Made by a program: the position numbers and the translations under genes
NCBI GenBank assembly: GCA_016208975.1
Contig: JACQXA010000004.1
Span: forward strand, 1,241,015 to 1,305,014
Direction: 5' to 3'
Origin: Nitrospinota bacterium
GTDB taxonomy: Bacteria; Nitrospinota_A; UBA7883; JACRLM01
DNA length: 64,000 nucleotides
Shown here: one piece after another, positions 7,183-18,936 of the stretch
Layout of the letters: each line of letters starts with the position of its first letter
Position numbering within the stretch: position 1 is the stretch's first letter
The notes under the pieces: generated by a model
Told to the model about the DNA's origin: nothing
The model's input: the letters and a program-made list of their open reading frames with translations, nothing else
Databases searched by the model: none

Positions 7183-7223
7183 GCGGAATCTTTAAAGTAG
7201 TCCGGTGAGGCTAAAAAGATCGC
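7183..7223 (+). promoter_or_regulatory. PyrR-binding RNA element in the pyr leader
   Basis: Bases 7199-7212 read AGTCCGGTGAGGCT, a 14/14 match to the PyrR-binding loop consensus ARUCCNGNGAGGYU. They are enclosed by the stem ATCTTT (7188-7193) with AAAGAT (7215-7220), extended by GCG and CGC after a two-base bulge. PyrR bound to UMP or UTP stabilises this loop and lowers pyr expression in Bacillus. It lies 173 bases before the pyrR start. Between it and pyrR (7224-7385) I see no gene and only a weak terminator candidate (CCCTT-CAAC-AAGGG near 7340-7355), so control could act on attenuation or on translation. Confidence 0.85.
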
Positions 7224-7385
7224 TCGGAAGGCGGTGGTTCGCCCACACGCTTAAGCCCGACAGACTAGAGATGTGACCCATGGCGTATGTGGTGGTTTCA
7301 ATCTCTCCTCCAATGCCGCTCCGGCTCTGGTTCCCTTTCAACAAGGGTTGGCTGTTTATTTAATCCCTAACAGGCAAGGTCATAA

Positions 7386-7976
7386 TTGTCCCAGGCTGAA
7401 GAGAAAAAAAACGACAAGCTGGCGGATTCCAGCGTAATCCTAACCCCGGTCAAGATGCGGCAGACCATAACCCGCATAGCCCACGAAATTGTGGAGCGGA
7501 ACCGGGACTTGAACGATTTGGCCATCGTTGGGATTGTCACCCGGGGCGCCGTATTGGCCGACAGGCTGGCCAGGGAATTGAAGAAAATAGCGGAAGTAAC
7601 CATTGCGACAGGATATTTGGACCCTACCTTCTACCGGGACGATTTCCACAGCCGGGGCCAGGAATTTGAGGCCAAGAAGACAGACATCCCTTTTTCGGTC
7701 ACCAATAAAACAGTCCTTCTGGTGGACGACGTGCTGTTCACCGGAAGGACCATCAACGCGGCCATAGCCCATCTTTTCGATTTGGGAAGGCCAAAGCAGG
7801 TCCAACTGGCCGTATTGATAGACCGGGGGCATAGGGAATTGCCCATCCGGCCGGACTATTGCGGCAAGAGCGTGCCTACCCAATATGTTGAAAAAATAAG
7901 GGTACGGTTCAAGGAATGTGACGGGAAAGATATCGTGGTGAGCGGCTTAACCGAAAAAATACCGGATCTGGATTGA
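7386..7976 (+). CDS. pyrR: PyrR: pyr operon regulator / uracil phosphoribosyltransferase
   Basis: A 196-residue protein of the PyrR family, which binds pyr leader RNA in response to uridine nucleotides and usually has uracil phosphoribosyltransferase activity. The PRPP motif is VLLVDDVLFTGRTINAAI; the N-terminal part (MRQTITRIAHEIVERN, then GIVTRGAVLADRLA) and DLGRPKQVQLAVLIDRGHRELPI are typical. The start is TTG 7386. It is the first gene of the pyr operon and lies directly behind a matching PyrR-binding RNA, so autoregulation is likely. Its stop overlaps the pyrB start. Confidence 0.95.
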   Translation: MSQAEEKKNDKLADSSVILTPVKMRQTITRIAHEIVERNRDLNDLAIVGIVTRGAVLADRLARELKKIAEVTIATGYLDPTFYRDDFHSRGQEFEAKKTDIPFSVTNKTVLLVDDVLFTGRTINAAIAHLFDLGRPKQVQLAVLIDRGHRELPIRPDYCGKSVPTQYVEKIRVRFKECDGKDIVVSGLTEKIPDLD

Positions 7977-8950
7977 TGTCGGAAAAAGGATTTACCCAGA
8001 AAAGGCGGCTACTTTCCGCGGCGGACCTTACCATCGAGGATGTGGAGAGGATTTTAAACACCGCCTCGGCCATGAAAGAGGTGTCCACCAGGGATGTAAA
8101 GAAAATACCTCCGCTCCGGGGCAAAACCATTATCAATTGCTTTCTGGAGCCCTCCACCCGGACTAAAACCAGCTTCGAGATAGCCGGAAAACGGCTCTCG
8201 GCGGACGTGATAAATATCAGCGCCACCGGCTCCTCCCTTTCCAAAGGAGAAACCATTAAGGACATGGCGAGGAACCTTTCCGCCATGAAACCAGACTTGG
8301 TGGTTGTCCGAAGCCAGTACTCCGGGATTCCCCTCAGAATCTCTGAATGGATAGACTGTGCTGTGGTAAACGCCGGGGATGGAAGGCATGAACACCCCAC
8401 CCAAAGTTTGCTGGACCTGTTTACCATCCGGGAGAAAAAAGGCCCCCTGGACAATTTGAATATTTCAATAATTGGAGATATTTTGAACAGCCGGGTAGCC
8501 CGGTCTAACATCATATTAATGAAGCTATTAGGCGCAAACATCACGCTCTGTGGCCCTGCCACTTTGCTACCTGTTTGCGATATATCCTGCGATAATAACA
8601 GGCCTGCCGGACTGGTTGTGGACAGGGTGACGAATTCACTTAAAGAAGCGGTGACCGGGGCCGATGTGGTGATGATGCTCCGCATCCAGACCGAACGCCT
8701 TAACGAGAAGAAATTTCCAAACCTGAGAGAATATTCTAAGCTGTACGGATTGTCCCCGGAAACCCTGAAACTGGCCGCCAAGGATCCGCTGGTTCTGCAC
8801 CCCGGCCCCATCAACCGGGGGGTGGAAATATCCCCTGAAGTGGCGGATGGGCCTTGGTGCGTGATGCTGGACCAAGTCACCAACGGTGTGGCTGTCAGGA
8901 TGGCGGTACTATATCTTCTCCTTGGGGGAGGTTCGGCTAGTAATGCTTGA
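7976..8950 (+). CDS. pyrB: Aspartate carbamoyltransferase catalytic subunit
   Basis: This 324-residue enzyme joins carbamoyl phosphate and aspartate, the first committed step of pyrimidine synthesis. Carbamoyl-phosphate residues are in EPSTRTKTSFE, the HPTQSLLDL motif is present, and the aspartate-domain loop HPGPINRGVE is near the C-terminus. ATG 7976 overlaps the pyrR stop (TGATG); a TTG just upstream is less likely. No pyrI regulatory gene is present, so it is probably the trimeric type without that subunit. A 45-bp AT-rich gap separates it from pyrC. Confidence 0.97.
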   Translation: MSEKGFTQKRRLLSAADLTIEDVERILNTASAMKEVSTRDVKKIPPLRGKTIINCFLEPSTRTKTSFEIAGKRLSADVINISATGSSLSKGETIKDMARNLSAMKPDLVVVRSQYSGIPLRISEWIDCAVVNAGDGRHEHPTQSLLDLFTIREKKGPLDNLNISIIGDILNSRVARSNIILMKLLGANITLCGPATLLPVCDISCDNNRPAGLVVDRVTNSLKEAVTGADVVMMLRIQTERLNEKKFPNLREYSKLYGLSPETLKLAAKDPLVLHPGPINRGVEISPEVADGPWCVMLDQVTNGVAVRMAVLYLLLGGGSASNA

Positions 8951-8995: not shown

Positions 8996-10279
8996 ATGAG
9001 CGTAAAAAGGTTATTGATAAAAGGCGGCAGGGTGATTGATCCCGCCAGCGGTGTGGATGGAATCCGAGATGTTCTCGTTGAGAAGGGTATTATTTCAATT
9101 ATTGATATATCTATCCAGACTGAGGACGCAAAAGTTCTAAGCGCCGAGGGCAAATGGGTGGTTCCTGGCTTGGTGGACATGCATGTCCATCTCAGGGAGC
9201 CGGGGTACGAATATAAAGAAACTATCGAAACTGGAACTAAGTCCGCCGCCGCTGGAGGGTTTACCTCGGTGGCATGCATGGCCAACACCAACCCGGTAAA
9301 CGATTGCGCCCAAGTTACGGAGTTCATCCGGAACATGGCCAAATCCAAAGGAGCCGTAAACGTATTCCCCATCGGCGCCATCACCAAAGGATTAAAGGGG
9401 GAAGCTTTGGCGGATATTGCGGAAATGGCCGAAGCCGGGGTGGTGGCATTGTCGGATGACGGCAAATGCGTGATGAACGCGGCGGTGATGCGGGCGGCCA
9501 TAGAATATGCAGGCATGTTTGGGCTTGCCATTATCGAGCATGCGGAAGATATTGATTTAAAACAGAATGGCGTTATGAACGAGGGGGTGGTATCCACCCG
9601 GCTTGGGCTGGTGGGTGCGCCAAGGATCTCGGAAGACACCATAACCGCAAGGGATATTAGCTTGGCGGAATATACCGGGGGGCATGTGCATTTCGCCCAT
9701 GTGTCCACCGCCGGAGCCGTGGAGCTTATCCGGTTCGCCAAGCAAAAAGGGGTTAAAGTGACGGCCGAAGCCGCGCCCCACCATTTCACCCTGACAGACG
9801 AGGCGGTGGGTGAGTACGACACCAACGCCAAAATGGCCCCTCCACTAAGGGAATCCAGGGATATTAATGCAATAATTCAAGGACTTGCCGATGGGACGAT
9901 AGACTGTATCGCCACCGATCACGCGCCCCACGGCATAGCGGAAAAAGAGGTGGAGTTCGATTCCGCCGCATTTGGTATCGTAGGGCTGGAAACGGCGGTT
10001 CCTTTAAGCTTGGGCCTGGTAAGGGATGGCAGGCTCACCCCCTTGCGGCTGGTGGAGGTGATGTCCTTTAACCCCTCTAAAATATTGAAGATAAACCGTG
10101 GGACCATCCAGCCCGGAGCCGTGGCGGACATAACTATAATAGACCCGGATAAAGAATGGGTTGTAGAACCCTCCCAGTTTAAATCCAAGGGGAGAAACAC
10201 CCCCTTCGCGGGCTGGAAAATGAAGGGAAAAGCGGTGGCAACGATTGTAAACGGAAATGTGGCCTACGAAGATAACTAA
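8996..10279 (+). CDS. pyrC: Dihydroorotase, class I
   Basis: This 427-residue zinc amidohydrolase cyclises carbamoyl aspartate to dihydroorotate. The HxH metal motif is DMHVHLREPGYEYKE, and later ligands are in IIEHAED, FAHVSTAG and CIATDHAPH; the C-terminal GRNTPFAGWKMKG segment is typical. Length and motifs fit the long class I enzymes, which can work alone or with PyrB. The metal ligands are present, so it is not the inactive PyrX form. It is third in the operon. Confidence 0.96.
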   Translation: MSVKRLLIKGGRVIDPASGVDGIRDVLVEKGIISIIDISIQTEDAKVLSAEGKWVVPGLVDMHVHLREPGYEYKETIETGTKSAAAGGFTSVACMANTNPVNDCAQVTEFIRNMAKSKGAVNVFPIGAITKGLKGEALADIAEMAEAGVVALSDDGKCVMNAAVMRAAIEYAGMFGLAIIEHAEDIDLKQNGVMNEGVVSTRLGLVGAPRISEDTITARDISLAEYTGGHVHFAHVSTAGAVELIRFAKQKGVKVTAEAAPHHFTLTDEAVGEYDTNAKMAPPLRESRDINAIIQGLADGTIDCIATDHAPHGIAEKEVEFDSAAFGIVGLETAVPLSLGLVRDGRLTPLRLVEVMSFNPSKILKINRGTIQPGAVADITIIDPDKEWVVEPSQFKSKGRNTPFAGWKMKGKAVATIVNGNVAYEDN

Positions 10280-10315: not shown

Positions 10316-11446
10316 ATGTTAAAAGAGAGAGCGTATCTGGCGTTATCTGATGGAAGGGTATTCACAGGCAGGCCATTAGGCATGCGCGGGGAGACTTCCG
10401 GCGAGGTTGTCTTCAACACTTCCATGATGGGGTATCAGGAGATACTTACCGATCCTTCTTATGAAGGGCAGATGGTTACCATGACATACCCTTTGATCGG
10501 CAATTATGGCGTGAACACGGAGGATGTGGAGTCGCGCCGGGTGTTCTCATCGGGTTTCATAATAAAAGAGGAGAGCGCCATGGCCTCCAATTTCCGCCAG
10601 TCCCAGAGTTTGGGTGATTATTTGCGGGAGATGGGGGTGGTGGGTATTCAGGGGATAGACACCCGGGCGCTCACCAAGCACATCAGGGAAAAAGGCTCCA
10701 TGCCGGGGGTGATAAGCTCCAGCGGTAACAATATGGACTTGGTGGTGGAGAAAGCCAAAATCCTTAAAAACCTGGACGGGATAGATTTGGCGGCCAAAGT
10801 TACCTGCTCGGCCCCATATAAATGGGATTCCGGGTTATGGAGGCTGGGAAAAGGGTTTGAGCCGTTGGCCAAACCGGCCAGGTTCAAGGTTGTGGCTGTG
10901 GATACTGGTATAAAGCACAACATCTTGCGCAACCTTGTGTCCGCCGGGTGTGATGTGACTGTCGTCCCGGCGAATATGAACGCCGAGGCGATCCTGGATT
11001 TTGCCCCGGATGGCGTATTTTTGAGCAACGGCCCGGGAGATCCGGCGGCGGTACCTTATTTGGCGAAAACCATCAAACAGTTGATGGGTAAAAAACCCAT
11101 TTTCGGTATATGCCTGGGTCATCAGATACTATCAATCGCCCTGGGCGCCAAAACTTACCGGTTGAAGTTCGGCCATCACGGGGGTAACCAGCCGGTGATG
11201 GATTTGACCACCGGGAAAGTGGAAATTACCGCCCAGAACCACAATTTCGCGGTGGATAAAGACTCTATCCCGGCGGATGTGGAAGTTACCCATGTCAATT
11301 TGAACGATGGAACCGTTGAGGGGATACGGTCAAAATCGGCTCCGGTGTTTTCGGTGCAATACCATCCGGAGGCGTCGCCGGGTCCGCACGACTCATCTTA
11401 TCTCTTCACGCGGTTCACGGATATGATGGAAAAATGGCCGCAGTAA
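10316..11446 (+). CDS. carA: Carbamoyl-phosphate synthase, small (glutaminase) subunit
   Basis: This 376-residue subunit hydrolyses glutamine and passes ammonia to CarB. The N-terminal half has the CPSase small-chain segment ([17 protein letters not shown]), and the C-terminal half is a class I glutamine amidotransferase with the nucleophile Cys in FGICLGHQ and the His/Glu pair in [10 protein letters not shown]. The last 13 bases overlap the following 221-codon gene, which separates it from carB. In many genomes carA and carB are directly adjacent. Confidence 0.97.
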
Positions 11447-12099
11447 AGATTTCATACGAAGCGCCAATCCGGGGATTGCTGGAGGATATTTCCCGGTTCG
11501 CCGCCACCGGACGGTTCGAGACCATGGCGCGCAACGCCCGTTCGGTTTATGACCGGCGCGTGGGAGTTATCCATTCAGACGACACTTGGTACGAGACGCG
11601 CATGGTTTCGTTTATGGAATGGTTTATCTTCGACTATGCGGAAGACCCGGCCAATGGAGGCAAAACCATTTTCCAGCTATTCCTGGAAGAAAACACCTTC
11701 GCGCTGGACACGCAGAACCGGGAAATAGCCGAAGCGCTGGCCAAACATGAGATGGACGTGTTCCGCGTAAAATGGAGCGCCGAAGGGGTGATGAAAGTCA
11801 CGGCGATATTCAAGGACGTGAACATTCTGTTCGCCGACGAGCGGAGCGGCACTTTTAAGAGTGGCGACCTGTTCAGCGGCCGGGCCCTTTTTTATAAAGA
11901 GCGGTGGTACTTGTCCAACGGCCTTTGCGTGCACCCATCCAAAGCCCGGCGGACGATTAAAAAAGAGATGAAAGGCTTTAGAAAAACCGCTGGCGCGGAC
12001 ATAAGGGATTACCTGCTCACCCTCACCGCCATGAGTTTGAAATGGGAACGTTCCCGGAACATAGACATAAACGACATTTACAAACCGGTGATCGTATAA
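11434..12099 (+). CDS. Conserved-looking protein of unknown function between carA and carB
   Basis: A 221-residue soluble protein that I cannot place in a family. It has no signal peptide or membrane segment and a mixed, charged composition with aromatic-rich stretches ([20 protein letters not shown] near 50-69; [14 protein letters not shown] near 147-160) and a basic segment near 165-180. It overlaps carA by 13 bases and its stop touches the carB ATG, so it is translated inside the operon. That tight fit suggests a role in the pathway or in CarAB assembly or control; this is inference from position only. Confidence 0.8.
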
Positions 12100-15000
12100 A
12101 TGCCAAAACGTACTGACATAAATAAAATCCTCATTATCGGCGCGGGGCCGATCGTGATAGGCCAGGCTTGCGAGTTCGACTATTCCGGCGCCCAGGCCTG
12201 CAAGGCGCTCAAGGAAGAGGGTTACACCGTTTGTCTCGTCAACTCCAATCCGGCCACGATTATGACCGACCCGGAGCTGGCCGACCGCACATATATAGAA
12301 CCCCTCACCGTGGACATGCTGGAGCGGATTATCGCGAGGGAACGGCCGGACGCCATCCTTCCCACAGTGGGAGGGCAGACGGCGCTGAACCTTGCCGTGG
12401 GACTCGCGGAGGCGGGCGTTCTGGACAAATACGGCGCGGAGCTTATCGGCGCCAAACTGCCAGCCATTAAAAAGGCGGAAGACCGCAACCTGTTCAAACA
12501 GGCCATGCTGGAGATAGGGCTTACGGTGCCATTGTCCGCCATGGCCCACAACATGGAAGAGGCTCGGTCTGCGTTGAAAACCGTGGGGCTTCCGGCAATC
12601 CTTCGCCCCGCGTTCACCCTGGGGGGCGCGGGCGGGGCCGTGGCCACCACCGAAGAGGAATACGAAAAATATTGCGCCTACGGGTTATCTGTAAGCCCTG
12701 TCTCCCAGCTCCTAATCGAGCAATCCATATCGGGCTGGAAAGAGTACGAGCTGGAGGTGATGCGCGACCTTAACGACAACGTGGTGATCATCTGCTCCAT
12801 CGAGAATTTCGACCCCATGGGCATCCACACCGGCGACTCCATCACCGTAGCCCCGGCCCAAACGTTGACGGACAGGGAATACCAGATTATGCGCGACGCG
12901 GCGCTGAAAATAATCCGCGAGATAGGGGTGGACACCGGCGGCTCCAACATCCAGTTCGCCGTGAATCCAAAGACCGGCGACCTGGTGATAATAGAGATGA
13001 ATCCGCGCGTGTCCCGCTCGTCGGCGCTGGCGTCGAAAGCCACGGGGTTCCCCATCGCAAAGATAGCGGCGAAACTGGCGGTGGGCTACACGCTGGACGA
13101 GATAAGGAACGACATTACCAAGGTCACACCCTCATCGTTCGAGCCTTCCATAGATTATTGCGTGGTAAAAGTCCCCAGGTTCGCGTTCGAAAAATTCCCG
13201 AAGGCGGACCGGCGGCTGACCACGCAGATGAAATCCGTGGGAGAGGTGATGAGCATCGGCCGCACCTTCAAGGAGGCGTTCCAGAAAGCCATCCGCTCGC
13301 TGGAGCTGGGCTCTTTCGGTTTCGAGGAGCATACATCGGCCACCATTGAAGAGGTTATCGAAAAGATGGCCGTGCCCTCATGGGACAGGCTATGGTACGT
13401 GGCGGAGGCCATGCGGCGCGGCCTGCCGATGGAAAAGGTGTGGGAAATAACGGCCATTGACCGCTGGTTTTTGCGAAACATAAAAGACATTCTGGACGCC
13501 GAGAGGGACATAAAAGAAAAAGGGCTGGAGGACGCCGACAACCTGCGGTGGTGGAAGGCCATGGGCTTTTCGGACCGGCGGCTGGCGGCGTTGACCGGGA
13601 AAACCGAAGACGAGGTGAGACACCTGAGGGGCGATACCGGCGTGAAACCGGTTTACAAACGGGTGGACACCTGCGCGGCGGAGTTCGAGGCCCATACGCC
13701 ATACCTTTATTCCACGTATGAAGAGGAATGCGAGGCGGAGCCGACAGACCGCAAAAAGGTGATGATATTGGGCGGCGGGCCCAACCGGATAGGGCAGGGG
13801 ATAGAGTTCGACTATTGCTGTGTCCACGCGGCGAAAGGGCTGAAGAAAGACGGTTACGAGACCATCATGGTCAACTGCAACCCGGAAACCGTATCCACGG
13901 ATTACGATACGTCCGACCGGCTCTACTTCGAGCCGCTGACGCTGGAAGACGTGCTTTCCATCATCGAGGTGGAAAAACCTTACGGCGTTATAGTCCAGTT
14001 CGGCGGGCAAACCCCGTTGAACCTGGCCAGGACGCTCAAAAAAGCCGGGGCGCCGATTATCGGAACCACGCCGGAATCCATCCATCGCGCCGAGGACCGG
14101 GAAAGTTTCAAGGAGATGCTTCACAAACTCGGCTTGAAACAGCCGGACAACGGCATCGCCACCAACCCGGAGCAGGCGCTTACCATAGCGCGGCGGATAG
14201 GTTACCCGGTGGTGGTGCGCCCTTCATACGTGCTGGGCGGTCGGGCCATGGAGATAGTTTACGACGATGAAGCGCTGGAATATTACATGGCCCATGCCGT
14301 GAAAGCCTCGCCGGACCATCCCGTGCTTATAGACAAGTTTTTGAGCGACGCCATCGAGATGGATGTGGACGCCATATCCGACGGCGAGATGGTGGTCATC
14401 GGCGGCGTGATGGAGCATATAGAAGAAGCGGGAGTGCATTCGGGAGACTCCGCCTGCTCCCTGCCTCCGCGCAACATAAGCAAAAAGCTGGTGGACGAAG
14501 TGAAACGCCAGACAAAAGCCATGGCCATAGAGCTGGGCACAGTGGGCCTGATAAACGTCCAGTTCGCCATAAAAGACGACCAGATATATGTGCTGGAGGT
14601 GAACCCAAGGGCCTCCCGCACCATACCATTCGTGTCGAAAACCATCGGCGTTCCGCTGGCCCAGCTGGCGGCGCGGGTGATGGCCGGAAAGAAACTTCCA
14701 GAGCTTGGATTCACCGAAGAAGTGGTTCACGAACATGTGGCGGTGAAAGAGTCGGTGTTCCCGTTCATAAAATTCCCGAACGTGGATACCATTTTAGGCC
14801 CCGAGATGAAATCCACCGGCGAGGTTATGGGGTTGGACAGGTCGTTCCCCCGTTCATTCGGCAAGGCCACGCTGGCCTCCGGCTCCACATTGCCGGAAGG
14901 GGGCACGGTGTTCATATCTGTGATGGACAAAGACAAAGCCCGCACCATGAGCATCGCCAAAACCCTGGGCGAATTTGGTTTTAAAATTCTGGCTACCAGG

Positions 15001-15321
15001 GGAACCGGCGGTAAGCTTAATGCGGCTGGGATAGCAGTGGAGGTCGTCCATAAAGTGGGGGAAGGCACCCCCACTTGCGTGGACCGTATAAAGGAAGGCG
15101 GAGTGGACCTGGTGATAAACACCACATCCGGCAAGAAATCCATTGAAGACTCTTATGAGATCCGGCGCATGGCGCTACACAAGAATATTCCGTACTTCAC
15201 AACCATCCAAGGGGCCGAAGCGGCGGTGCTGGCCATTACGGCCAGGTTCCGGCAGGACATGGAGGCGCGAACGCTTCAGGAGTATTTTGAGGATATGGCC
15301 CTGCGAGGCGCCGCCAGATAA
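12100..15321 (+). CDS. carB: Carbamoyl-phosphate synthase, large subunit
   Basis: This 1073-residue enzyme makes carbamoyl phosphate from ammonia, bicarbonate and two ATP. The two homologous halves are clear: [17 protein letters not shown] at the start of the first and [17 protein letters not shown] near residue 556, each followed by an ATP-grasp domain with [18 protein letters not shown] and [20 protein letters not shown]-terminal MGS-like allosteric domain (about 930-1073) is present. Full length and intact. Starts directly at the stop of the unknown gene; the next gene follows after 16 bases. Confidence 0.98.
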
Positions 15322-15337: not shown

Positions 15338-16816
15338 TTGAACCATAAATTGGCCTGGGTTCTTGCGGCGTTATTCCTTGCCCTGCCGTTCAACGGCTAC
15401 GCCGCGGAGCCGATGAGGGAGTGGCAGAACCGGACATACGAGAAAACCCTGTCCGAAAACTGGATGAACATCTTCTTCCAGGGGCAGAAAATCGGTTTCT
15501 CCTTCGAAAAGGTTGAAACCGGCCCGAAGGGTTTTCGGGTTACAGGCCGGGCGGTGGTGAAGTTCGCCGTGGCGGACACCACGCAGGACATGTCTTTTTC
15601 CCAGACCTATTATCTCGAGCCCGATTACCGCATGAAAGGGTTCGTGTCGCTCCACACCATGCAGAACCAGCGTCAGCAAACCGTGGGCGAGGTGGCAGGT
15701 AAAGATCTGAACCTGGACATCACCGGGGCGGGCGGCTCCCGGCGGGTAACAAAAAAACTGGAAACCGGCGTATATTTCGCGGAGACGCTGGAGCTGATGC
15801 TGAAGGATAAACTGAAACCCGGATTCAAGGGCAAGTTCCCCATCTATCTGGCGGAAATGCGCGCCATGGATGAAATCGCTGTGGAGGTTATAGGCCGGCA
15901 AACCATTCAGCATGAGGGCAAACCGGTGGATACGCTGGTGACGCAAACCAGCATCCGTGGCATATCCACCAAAAGCTACATAGGCGCTAATGGTGAAAAA
16001 CTCCGGGAGGAAAGCCCCATGGGGTTCACCTCCATAAAAGTGTCAGAGCGGGAGGCCATTAGCATGCCCGCGGCCACCATACCTATAACAAGCCTTATCA
16101 CGTTCAGTCTTATAAAGCCGAGCAAACCAATTAAAGATCCGCTGGCGCTAAAAGAGCTTAAATTAACGGTGGGCGGGTTTGAGTCGCCGGTAATCCTTCC
16201 CTCCGACGAACGCCAGACCACGGGCAGGCCGGAGTGGAGAAAAGGCGCGGACGGGAAGAGCAAACTGAGCATACCGGTGACCATAAAGAAGCTGGCGCCA
16301 AAGCAGGATTTGCCGCTGGCGCGGGTTTCCCGGATGGAGGAGGGTTACTTGAAACCCACGCCGGAAATCCAGAGCGACAACAAGCTGATAGCCTCCGAGG
16401 CCAGAAAAATGGTGGGTCATGAGAAGGACGCTTACAAGGCGGCCATCCTTATCAACCGGTGGGTTTTTTCCAACGTGAAAAAAAAGCTGGTGGACTCCTT
16501 CACGGCCATTGACGTACTGTTGTCAAAAGAAGGAGAATGCCAGAGCCATACAAACCTGTTCGCCGCCTTGGCTAGAAGCGTGGGGATACCAACCCGCGTC
16601 GCGGCGGGGCTGGTGTATTCTGTGGAGCACCAGGGGTTTTTATTCCACGCCTGGCCCGAAGTTTACGTGGGCCAATGGATAAGCGTTGATCCTACATTGG
16701 GGCAAGACGTGGCGGACGCCACCCATATTAAACTAACAGACGGGGAATACGAAAACTTGATAAAGCTACTCCAGTTCCTCGTTAAGATAAATATTACTGT
16801 GGAACCGGCGGGTTAA
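15338..16816 (+). CDS. Exported transglutaminase-like (cysteine protease fold) protein
   Basis: A 492-residue protein with an N-terminal signal peptide (KLAWVLAALFLALPFNGYA) and a C-terminal transglutaminase-like domain. The triad is visible: Cys in GECQSHTNLFAALARSVGIPTR, His in FLFHAWPEVYVG and Asp in WISVDPTLGQ. Such domains usually act as peptidases or amidases in the envelope. I chose TTG 15338 because a signal peptide starts there and it lies beyond carB; the frame stays open upstream inside carB. It sits between carB and pyrK with gaps of 16 and 18 bases, so it is co-transcribed with pyrimidine genes though nothing links it to that pathway. Confidence 0.88.
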   Translation: MNHKLAWVLAALFLALPFNGYAAEPMREWQNRTYEKTLSENWMNIFFQGQKIGFSFEKVETGPKGFRVTGRAVVKFAVADTTQDMSFSQTYYLEPDYRMKGFVSLHTMQNQRQQTVGEVAGKDLNLDITGAGGSRRVTKKLETGVYFAETLELMLKDKLKPGFKGKFPIYLAEMRAMDEIAVEVIGRQTIQHEGKPVDTLVTQTSIRGISTKSYIGANGEKLREESPMGFTSIKVSEREAISMPAATIPITSLITFSLIKPSKPIKDPLALKELKLTVGGFESPVILPSDERQTTGRPEWRKGADGKSKLSIPVTIKKLAPKQDLPLARVSRMEEGYLKPTPEIQSDNKLIASEARKMVGHEKDAYKAAILINRWVFSNVKKKLVDSFTAIDVLLSKEGECQSHTNLFAALARSVGIPTRVAAGLVYSVEHQGFLFHAWPEVYVGQWISVDPTLGQDVADATHIKLTDGEYENLIKLLQFLVKINITVEPAG

Positions 16817-16834: not shown

Positions 16835-17614
16835 ATGAATTATTCCATTGATTGCATCGTGAGAGCCTCGGACACCTTGTCCGACGGGTTCTTCCACCTT
16901 TCGCTGGAGCCGGTGCGGAAGATATCGAAAATCGTTCCGGGCCAGTTCGTGATGGTGCGGTGCGCGGCCCAGCTGGATCCTTTCCTGCGAAGGCCCATGA
17001 GCATAGCGGACTTTGAGCCGGACGGATCCCGGTTCGGTTTGCTGATAAAACAGGTGGGCAAAGGCACCCGTTATCTGGCGGGTCTTGCGCCCTGGAGCAG
17101 TCTGGACGTAATGGGCCCGTATGGCCAGGGTTTTACTGTTCCTGAGGGGGTAAGAAAAATATGGATAGTGGCGGGCGGCTCCGGCGTGGCTCCGTTTCTG
17201 GGTTTGCTTGCCAACAGCCCTAAAGGCGCCTATGAGCACACCGTTTTTCTTGGCGCCAAGAACGAAAGCGAGCTTTTATACCTTAACCGGCTGGAAAAAC
17301 ACGCCCGGGTTATCACGGCCACGGAAGATGGATCCCACGGCTTTTCAGGGTATGTAACGGAGCCGTTCTCCACGGAGATTTCCGGCGGAGCAAGACCCGA
17401 CATTATTTTCACCTGCGGCCCCACGCCCATGATGAAGAAAGTTGCCCAACTGGCCGAAGAGCTGGGCATCCCCTGCCAGGTGTCATTGGAGAACAGCATG
17501 GCCTGCGGGTTCGGGGCTTGCCTGGGGTGCGTGGTAAAAGCCAGGGGGCAGGACAAATATTTAACCGTGTGCAAGAACGGCCCCGTGTTCGACGCGCTGA
17601 GGATAGAGCTTTAG
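16835..17614 (+). CDS. pyrK: Dihydroorotate dehydrogenase electron-transfer subunit
   Basis: This 259-residue FAD and [2Fe-2S] protein links PyrD type 1B to NAD. The FAD-binding segment RRPMSIAD and the pyridine-nucleotide motif GGSGVAPFLGLL are present, and the C-terminal cluster CGFGACLGC plus a later Cys in LTVCKNGPVF supplies four cysteines for the iron-sulfur centre. Four bases before pyrD, which confirms the pairing. Confidence 0.96.
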   Translation: MNYSIDCIVRASDTLSDGFFHLSLEPVRKISKIVPGQFVMVRCAAQLDPFLRRPMSIADFEPDGSRFGLLIKQVGKGTRYLAGLAPWSSLDVMGPYGQGFTVPEGVRKIWIVAGGSGVAPFLGLLANSPKGAYEHTVFLGAKNESELLYLNRLEKHARVITATEDGSHGFSGYVTEPFSTEISGGARPDIIFTCGPTPMMKKVAQLAEELGIPCQVSLENSMACGFGACLGCVVKARGQDKYLTVCKNGPVFDALRIEL

Positions 17615-17618
17615 CCCC

Positions 17619-18539
17619 ATGGGGAATGTAAACCTTTCGGTGAACTTTGGCGGCGTGCCGCTGAAAAACCCAATAGTGGGGGCTTCGGGCACGTTCGGTT
17701 ACGGCATAATGTACAACCGGTTTTACGACCTGGAGGAGATCGGCGGGTTCGTAACCAAGGGTCTTTCCAATTTCCCCAGGGCGGGCAACAAGCCACCGAG
17801 GATTTTCGAGACCGCCTCCGGCATGCTTAACGCCATCGGTTTGCAGAACATCGGGTTTGAAAAGTTCGTTAAAGACAAAATGCCGGTTTTGCGGGGTGTG
17901 AACACCGCCGTGATAGCCAATTTTTTCGGCGCCACGGTGGAGGAATACGCCCAGATGGCCGAGAAACTGGGGAATGTGGACGGAGTGGCGGCGCTGGAGA
18001 TGAACATATCCTGCCCCAACATAAAAGAGGGTGGCATAGCTTTCGGCTCCGATGTAAAACTTACAGGAACCGTGGTGAAGGCATGCAGAAAGGCCACCAC
18101 CAAACCTTTGATAGTGAAACTTTCCCCCAACGTGGGGGATATTACGGAATTCGCCAAGGCCTGCGAGGCCAACGGGGCCGACGGGTTGAGCGTGATTAAC
18201 ACCATCGTGGGCATGGCCATAGACATCAGGAAAAGGGAGCCCGCCCTTTCAAACGTCACCGGCGGGCTTTCCGGCCCGGCCATAAAACCCATCGCGTTAC
18301 GGATGGTGTGGCAATGTTACAAATCCGTTAAAATACCTATCTTCGGCATCGGTGGCGTGGTGTCGGCGGAGGATGTGGTAGAGTTCATCATGGCCGGGGC
18401 CACGGCCGTGCAGGTGGGCTCCATGAACTTTGTGGACCCGTATATCTGCAAGCGCCTCAAAGATGAACTGCCCGAGGTTCTATCAGACCTTGGGGTTCAA
18501 GACATAAACGAAATAATCGGCGCCGCCCACAGCCTGTGA
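17619..18539 (+). CDS. pyrD: Dihydroorotate dehydrogenase, class 1B catalytic subunit
   Basis: A 306-residue FMN enzyme that oxidises dihydroorotate to orotate in the cytosol, using NAD through PyrK. The catalytic cysteine is in EMNISCPNIKEGG, the mark of class 1 rather than the membrane class 2 enzyme; FMN-phosphate segments GIGGVVSAEDVVEFIMAGA and VQVGS follow. pyrE and pyrF are not in the window, so the last two steps are encoded elsewhere. Confidence 0.97.
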   Translation: MGNVNLSVNFGGVPLKNPIVGASGTFGYGIMYNRFYDLEEIGGFVTKGLSNFPRAGNKPPRIFETASGMLNAIGLQNIGFEKFVKDKMPVLRGVNTAVIANFFGATVEEYAQMAEKLGNVDGVAALEMNISCPNIKEGGIAFGSDVKLTGTVVKACRKATTKPLIVKLSPNVGDITEFAKACEANGADGLSVINTIVGMAIDIRKREPALSNVTGGLSGPAIKPIALRMVWQCYKSVKIPIFGIGGVVSAEDVVEFIMAGATAVQVGSMNFVDPYICKRLKDELPEVLSDLGVQDINEIIGAAHSL

Positions 18540-18596: not shown

Positions 18597-18902
18597 ATGA
18601 AATCATTCAATCCCGGCAGAGGACGGGGCGGCGGAAAACCTGGCGGTGGGAAACCTGGTGGAGGAAGACCTGGCGGTGGAAAGCCCGGCCATGGGAAAAG
18701 GAGTTTCTCGAAAGCCAAACCCGGCAAATCCGGCAAACCGGAGGGCAAAAAAAGGTTCGGCCAGGCCCAGCGGGCTGATTTTAAAATGAGCCTGCCCAAG
18801 GATGACCGTTACAAGGATGTGAACCCCATGTCCATCGAGGAGCGTAAAGCGGCCCAGCTGGAGAAATGGCGTAAGGAGCTGGGACTGGACGAAGAAGAGT
18901 AA
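18597..18902 (+). CDS. Small basic Gly-rich repeat protein
   Basis: A 101-residue protein whose N-terminal third is low complexity: four tandem GGGKP-type pentads (residues 11-30), then a Lys/Arg/Ser/Gly-rich stretch to about 58, then a charged helical tail (MSIEERKAAQLEKWRKELGL). The 60 bases at 18627-18686 are four 15-base repeats. Glycine-arginine/lysine-rich tails are common in RNA-binding proteins, but no folded domain is visible. It follows pyrD by 57 bases and precedes the operon terminator. The ribosome site is weak, so its expression is less sure. Confidence 0.6.
   Translation: MKSFNPGRGRGGGKPGGGKPGGGRPGGGKPGHGKRSFSKAKPGKSGKPEGKKRFGQAQRADFKMSLPKDDRYKDVNPMSIEERKAAQLEKWRKELGLDEEE
18627..18686 (+). 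repeat. Four 15-bp tandem repeats within the Gly-rich gene
   Basis: Four successive 15-base units, each coding Gly-Gly-Gly-(Lys/Arg)-Pro, differ mainly at third codon positions. That pattern shows selection for the peptide repeat or an old expansion. Confidence 0.85.
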
Positions 18903-18911
18903 AAAAGCTTG

Positions 18912-18936
18912 AGCGCCCGGCCTGGCGCTACTTTTT
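18912..18936 (+). terminator. Terminator of the pyr operon, probably bidirectional
   Basis: AGCGCC (18912-18917) pairs with GGCGCT (18924-18929), followed by AC and five T. On the other strand the same stem is followed, after five bases, by a run of six T (complement of 18901-18906). It overlaps the stop codon of the minus-strand 73-codon gene. Confidence 0.75.

Follow-up and report, generated by a model that had tools for sequence, protein, structure and literature searches.

We analysed a window of 64,000 nucleotides from a Nitrospinota bacterium with a genome of 2.97 Mb. The window encodes a pyrimidine operon on the plus strand in the order pyrR-pyrB-pyrC-carA-orf221-carB-TG-pyrK-pyrD, where TG denotes the transglutaminase-like gene, or its protein, of the ORF at 15338-16816; a leader with a PyrR loop lies ahead of the operon, and orf101 and a terminator-like stem lie behind it. 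L-numbers and G-numbers below denote loci and genomes, respectively. The leader with the PyrR-binding-loop motif spans 7185-7359. The gene pyrR (7386-7976; NCBIfam NF003549, 228.8 bits against a cut-off of 138) is taken as a member of the operon since it passes that cut-off and overlaps pyrB (7973-8950; NF002032, 378.3 bits, cut-off 263). They are followed by pyrC, encoding dihydroorotase (8996-10279), carA (10316-11446; TIGR01368, 511 bits), orf221 (11434-12099) and carB (12100-15321, an ORF of 1073 aa). Downstream of TG are pyrK, the gene of the dihydroorotate dehydrogenase electron transfer subunit (16835-17614; PF10418, PF00175 and PF00970, all over their cut-offs), and pyrD (17619-18539; NF005574, 418.3 bits, cut-off 269). 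The names of pyrR, pyrB, carA, the PyrK-type FAD/NAD/Fe-S protein and PyrD come from Pfam and NCBIfam, while carB and pyrC were named from their own sequences and tblastn against relatives rather than from a family model; relatives of both are found in the same position, those of carB in the class loci.

TG is translated into 492 residues from a TTG start. The original prediction had placed it between carB and pyrK with gaps below 20 bases, and the coordinates bear this out: 16 bases separate the end of carB at 15321 from TG at 15338, and 18 bases separate its end at 16816 from pyrK at 16835. The genome encodes no paralogue of TG, as our search of it returned a single match. A second accessory gene, the uncharacterised orf221, has homologues between carA and carB in most loci of the class and in L106, but is absent from some, e.g. 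L048 and L053. It has no Pfam family over cut-off and no NCBIfam match, and its predicted model is confident (pLDDT 89.6) but resembles no PDB structure clearly (best Z 4.4). The possible last gene of the operon, orf101 (18597-18902), is a small Gly/Lys/Pro-rich ORF 3' of pyrD, a C-terminal stretch of which is kept in two relatives (2 of 20 class loci). The terminator-like stem beyond it (18912-18929) is a consensus match only.

TG appears to combine two folds, and this architecture is supported by a predicted model. The AlphaFold2 model, made from 60 sequences, has a mean pLDDT of 92.5 and a pTM of 0.89. Its residues 36-238, approximately (15443-16051), resemble the periplasmic EipB/DUF1849 beta-barrel of Brucella (6ntr, Z 16.8, rmsd 3.0, 196 residues aligned), with 11% sequence identity in the fold match and no match of TG to the Pfam DUF1849 profile at E up to 0.01. 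EipB is not known to have a catalytic domain. A DUF3108 identity (PF11306) was considered and rejected, as its 17.8 bits are below the curated cut-off of 26. The transglutaminase-like domain covers residues 327-492, approximately (16316-16813), and matches PF01841 Transglut_core at residues 355-452 (E 9.8e-19, 68.1 bits against a curated cut-off of 23). The best sequence and fold match to this C-terminal half is 3isr, a putative transglutaminase-like cysteine protease of Cytophaga hutchinsonii with a solved structure and a putative function (Z 19.2, rmsd 4.0, 211 aligned). It aligns to residues 271-492 of the model only, and the EipB-like barrel is outside the match.

TG is probably an exported and catalytic envelope protein, judging from its residues. 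The triad Cys401 (16538-16540), His437 (16646-16648) and Asp451 (16688-16690) is kept in full in 60 of 60 aligned relatives in our alignment A3, and a signal-like hydrophobic stretch is predicted at residues 1-22 (15338-15403); some relatives have lipobox-like N-termini. The complete Cys-His-Asp triad of an envelope protein, as originally predicted, is thus present, with the export predicted from the N-terminus. In alignment A1 the catalytic His is found in 20 of 21 TG copies, and the L054 copy has Leu. This triad loss coincides in one genome (G009) with an insertion of 2.3 kb between carB and TG. Proteins with a transglutaminase-like fold may cleave amide bonds, transfer them or lack activity, and the peptidase function named in the original prediction is one possibility among these.

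The leader carries the PyrR-binding-loop motif without a mismatch, and none of 300 shuffles was as good. It scores 29.1 bits against the Rfam PyrR family RF00515, below the gathering score of 54. Across the class, 11 of 13 leaders have the motif with at most two mismatches, and at most one of 300 shuffles was as good in each; L059 has three mismatches and L058 four. The RF00515 cut-off was reached by none of the 11 class loci searched. The leader of L106, from another phylum, does pass it with 56.9 bits, and the motif was not found in L202 and L204, where 212 and 184 of 300 shuffles were as good. As a PyrR-type leader precedes the operon, expression of TG should follow pyrimidine demand, as the original prediction proposed from the position of the gene. 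A strong separate promoter and terminator around TG, named in the original prediction as a refutation, were rejected, because promoter-like sites occur at chance level (12 found against 9.9 expected over the whole stretch) and no plus-strand terminator-like site was found between carB and pyrK. Two plus-strand promoter-like sites lie inside the TG ORF, so a weak internal promoter is possible. PyrR control and co-transcription of TG are likely, given the conserved loop motif, the lack of a terminator-like site from carB to pyrK and the chance level of promoters. A c-di-GMP riboswitch match inside TG (15907-16000; E 1.5) is under its cut-off and was taken as chance.

The position of TG is conserved across its class, a check that the original prediction itself had suggested. 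The nearest named relative of the source is the Nitrospinota MAG nNGHbin12, which a passage of PMC10839748 assigns to class UBA7883; the class of the source is named through this relative. TG was found in 22 of the 23 genomes of this class, and in 22 of the 24 genomes of the phylum, including all 15 that are at least 90% complete; the two without it are G010 and G023. It directly follows carB in 20 of the 22 genomes that have it and directly precedes pyrK in 21 of the 21 where the contig allows a view. G001 has no carB within 9 kb before TG, and in G009 carB is 2.3 kb away. In 11 of 18 loci with both genes read, a candidate start codon of TG overlaps the stop codon of carB. The flanking genes are kept far less: of the 12 loci that extend 3 kb or more upstream of pyrR, 2 contain a zntABC-like gene, and of the 15 that extend 2.3 kb or more beyond pyrD, none contains the amidohydrolase gene. 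Therefore it is the operon and not the region that is conserved, and we rejected general regional conservation as the cause of TG's position.

TG is linked to pyrimidine genes in distant relatives too. We scanned named genomes with a profile and sorted the resulting 80 TG loci by context. In the Nitrospinota branch outside Nitrospinia, pyr genes lie beside TG in 13 of 13 loci; nine of these are genomes of the class census and the other four are L076, L082, L085 and L086. In Nitrospinia dnaE is downstream of TG in 23 of 24 loci, 14 of these with a divergent guaB upstream. The Nitrospinia loci are among L071-L098, L109, L113 and L115, and the divergent genes opposite dnaE are often guaB-guaA. 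In other phyla, TG adjoins the gene of an ABC ATPase, of a PF16949 exporter or of both in 32 of 43 loci (25 with both, five with the ATPase only and two with PF16949 only); two loci have pyr genes (L102 and L106), and the other nine, several of which lie close to contig ends, have none of these. The TG-ABC ATPase-PF16949 cassettes (among L099-L144, e.g. L104, 6110-10239) are often closely packed, have an M50 peptidase upstream in some cases and are apparently uncharacterised. They belong to the same protein family as TG, with exporter linkage instead of pyr genes. Copies with neither ABC nor pyr neighbours adjoin glyA, a class-III aminotransferase gene (hemL-like), nadA or a pseudouridine synthase gene; rnc and dnaE are likewise found as neighbours of TG relatives. 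In the phylum of L106, 44 of 118 sampled genomes encode TG, and it is pyr-linked in five of the 40 that we inspected (all but G073, G109, G126 and G164). The orders in these five are carB-greA-TG in L102 and in L106, the latter with recG after TG, and, in L202, L203 and L204, pyrC-TG followed by a sigma54-type response regulator gene and a type IV pilin gene. The order rnc-TG-pyrK-pyrD is a further pyr-linked arrangement observed among TG relatives.

The pyr linkage of TG looks ancient and of single origin, as the pyr-linked copies fall into one clade with those of Nitrospinia in our sequence trees. In a tree of 51 TG proteins, which left out 22 of 73 rows with the longest branches among them, the pyr-linked copies, the Nitrospinia copies and L201, whose upstream contig is cut, are separated from the rest by a single branch (support 99/93). 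A larger quick tree of all 73 rows gives the same branch with support 94. The simplest account is one entry into a pyr operon, later reshuffling of the neighbours and a departure in Nitrospinia, with the linked operon passed on either vertically or by transfer. Repeated independent insertions into pyr operons are not needed, since the tree gives one clade.

Such a single origin could mean that TG was inserted by chance long ago and has been kept since the pyr genes would suffer if it were excised. How it is expressed would then be inconsequential. The widely varying neighbours across the TG family are in line with such a hitchhiker. However, the linkage has outlived several operon rearrangements, and 22 of 24 genomes retain TG while the accessory orf221 is missing from some loci; we consider this explanation unlikely.

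TG may instead be the periplasmic piece of the TG-ABC ATPase-PF16949 cassette that still works with its exporter, the pyr operon being only its address. The cassette is the context of most TG loci in other phyla, and PF16949 is found in 18 of the 24 genomes of the window's phylum. The window's genome has one PF16949 gene and an ATPase 51% identical to that of the cassette (the next best match is 39% identical), with TG, this ATPase and PF16949 in three separate places. We fetched 12 PF16949 loci in the phylum and read 11 with their neighbours, none of which has TG beside it. Against a detached exporter part, two genomes with a completeness of 90% or more, G006 and G020, have TG but no PF16949 hit, and Nitrospina sp. 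LS_NOB keeps TG while only a remnant of PF16949 was found. It is possible that TG has retained a partnership with the PF16949 exporter in this phylum, though we regard the reading as a whole as rather doubtful.

A further explanation is specific to pyrimidines. TG would act in a process of the envelope that draws on UTP or CTP, such as the making of surface polysaccharide, lipopolysaccharide or peptidoglycan precursors, and its production at pyrimidine shortage would be the purpose of the arrangement. The linkage has been kept through the rearrangements that gave carB-TG-pyrK and the other pyr-linked orders above, and the nearest studied analogue, HvyA, restrains the capsule according to a passage of PMC4241560. 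However, TG of Nitrospinia is away from pyr genes, most homologues elsewhere sit with the ABC exporter, and the pyr linkage arose once by the tree, so it counts as one event and not repeated ones. We think this quite unlikely.

Our analysis suggests, with middling confidence, that TG is an enzyme of the envelope acting on amide bonds, and that the PyrR-controlled operon couples its dose to growth. The EipB/LolA-LolB-like barrel would probably hold an envelope ligand, i.e. a lipid, a lipoprotein or a peptide, and the Cys-His-Asp transglutaminase-like domain would hydrolyse or transfer an amide bond in that ligand. TG would be translated from the PyrR-attenuated pyr mRNA, and therefore its dose would follow the demand for new nucleotides, that is, growth. 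Its entry into a pyr operon would have been a single event in the common ancestor of the clade that comprises Nitrospinota plus a few genomes from a further phylum, and the gene would have remained pyr-linked since then, with changes of its immediate neighbour. We infer the growth coupling also from the other copies, which adjoin dnaE, glyA, the aminotransferase gene, nadA and rnc. As relatives lie beside these genes and the ABC exporter, a housekeeping berth tied to growth accounts for the placement no less well than one specific to pyrimidines, and the remaining contexts of the family favour an envelope enzyme using a growth-linked operon. We count against the growth-coupled reading the two genomes with carB distant from TG or not seen, the class leaders under the RF00515 cut-off, the promoter-like sites inside the ORF, the exporter-linked loci of other phyla and the copy with Leu for the catalytic His. 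The original prediction had interpreted the locus as an unexpected link between nucleotide synthesis and an exported peptidase. This is supported in part: operon membership, conserved position, the PyrR-type leader and the triad agree with it, while the peptidase activity and a functional link to nucleotide synthesis are putative, and the family contexts argue against a berth that is purely pyrimidine-specific.

Known systems tie both halves of TG to the envelope. Brucella requires EipB for the integrity of its envelope, deletion of EipB makes the cells sensitive to envelope-damaging compounds, and its precise role is described as unknown in a passage of PMC10787603. HvyA of Caulobacter is a periplasmic transglutaminase homologue encoded in a capsule export locus, and its triad residues are needed for function, as stated in part of PMC4241560. 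The BTLCP-type proteins HvyA and LapG are like TG in being exported with a Cys-His-Asp triad, HvyA acting on envelope structure according to the same source, and the LapG fold matches the TG model with Z 8.6. They differ in that BTLCP is absent from the two Pfam families that match TG at E up to 0.01. Among the titles and abstracts that our searches of open-licence PubMed Central listed, none describes a pyr operon containing a transglutaminase-like gene; DUF3108 and transglutaminase are both named, in separate passages, in the part of PMC3597751 that we consulted.

We speculate, as a very improbable case by analogy with HvyA, that TG could be an output arm of PyrR. With falling UTP, TG would be made together with the biosynthetic enzymes and would throttle or remodel a surface polymer with UDP- or CDP-linked precursors, as HvyA does with the capsule. 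If true, the pyrimidine pool would be wired directly to the cell surface. The TG family combines an EipB-like barrel with a transglutaminase-like enzyme, both of which are associated with the envelope in other systems. The triad of TG is a clear target for mutation, and the family's contexts in other phyla suggest that an uncharacterised ABC exporter is its partner there. An envelope protein in a nucleotide operon across a whole class, and pyr-linked in at least one further phylum, offers a test of how envelope and biosynthesis are matched.
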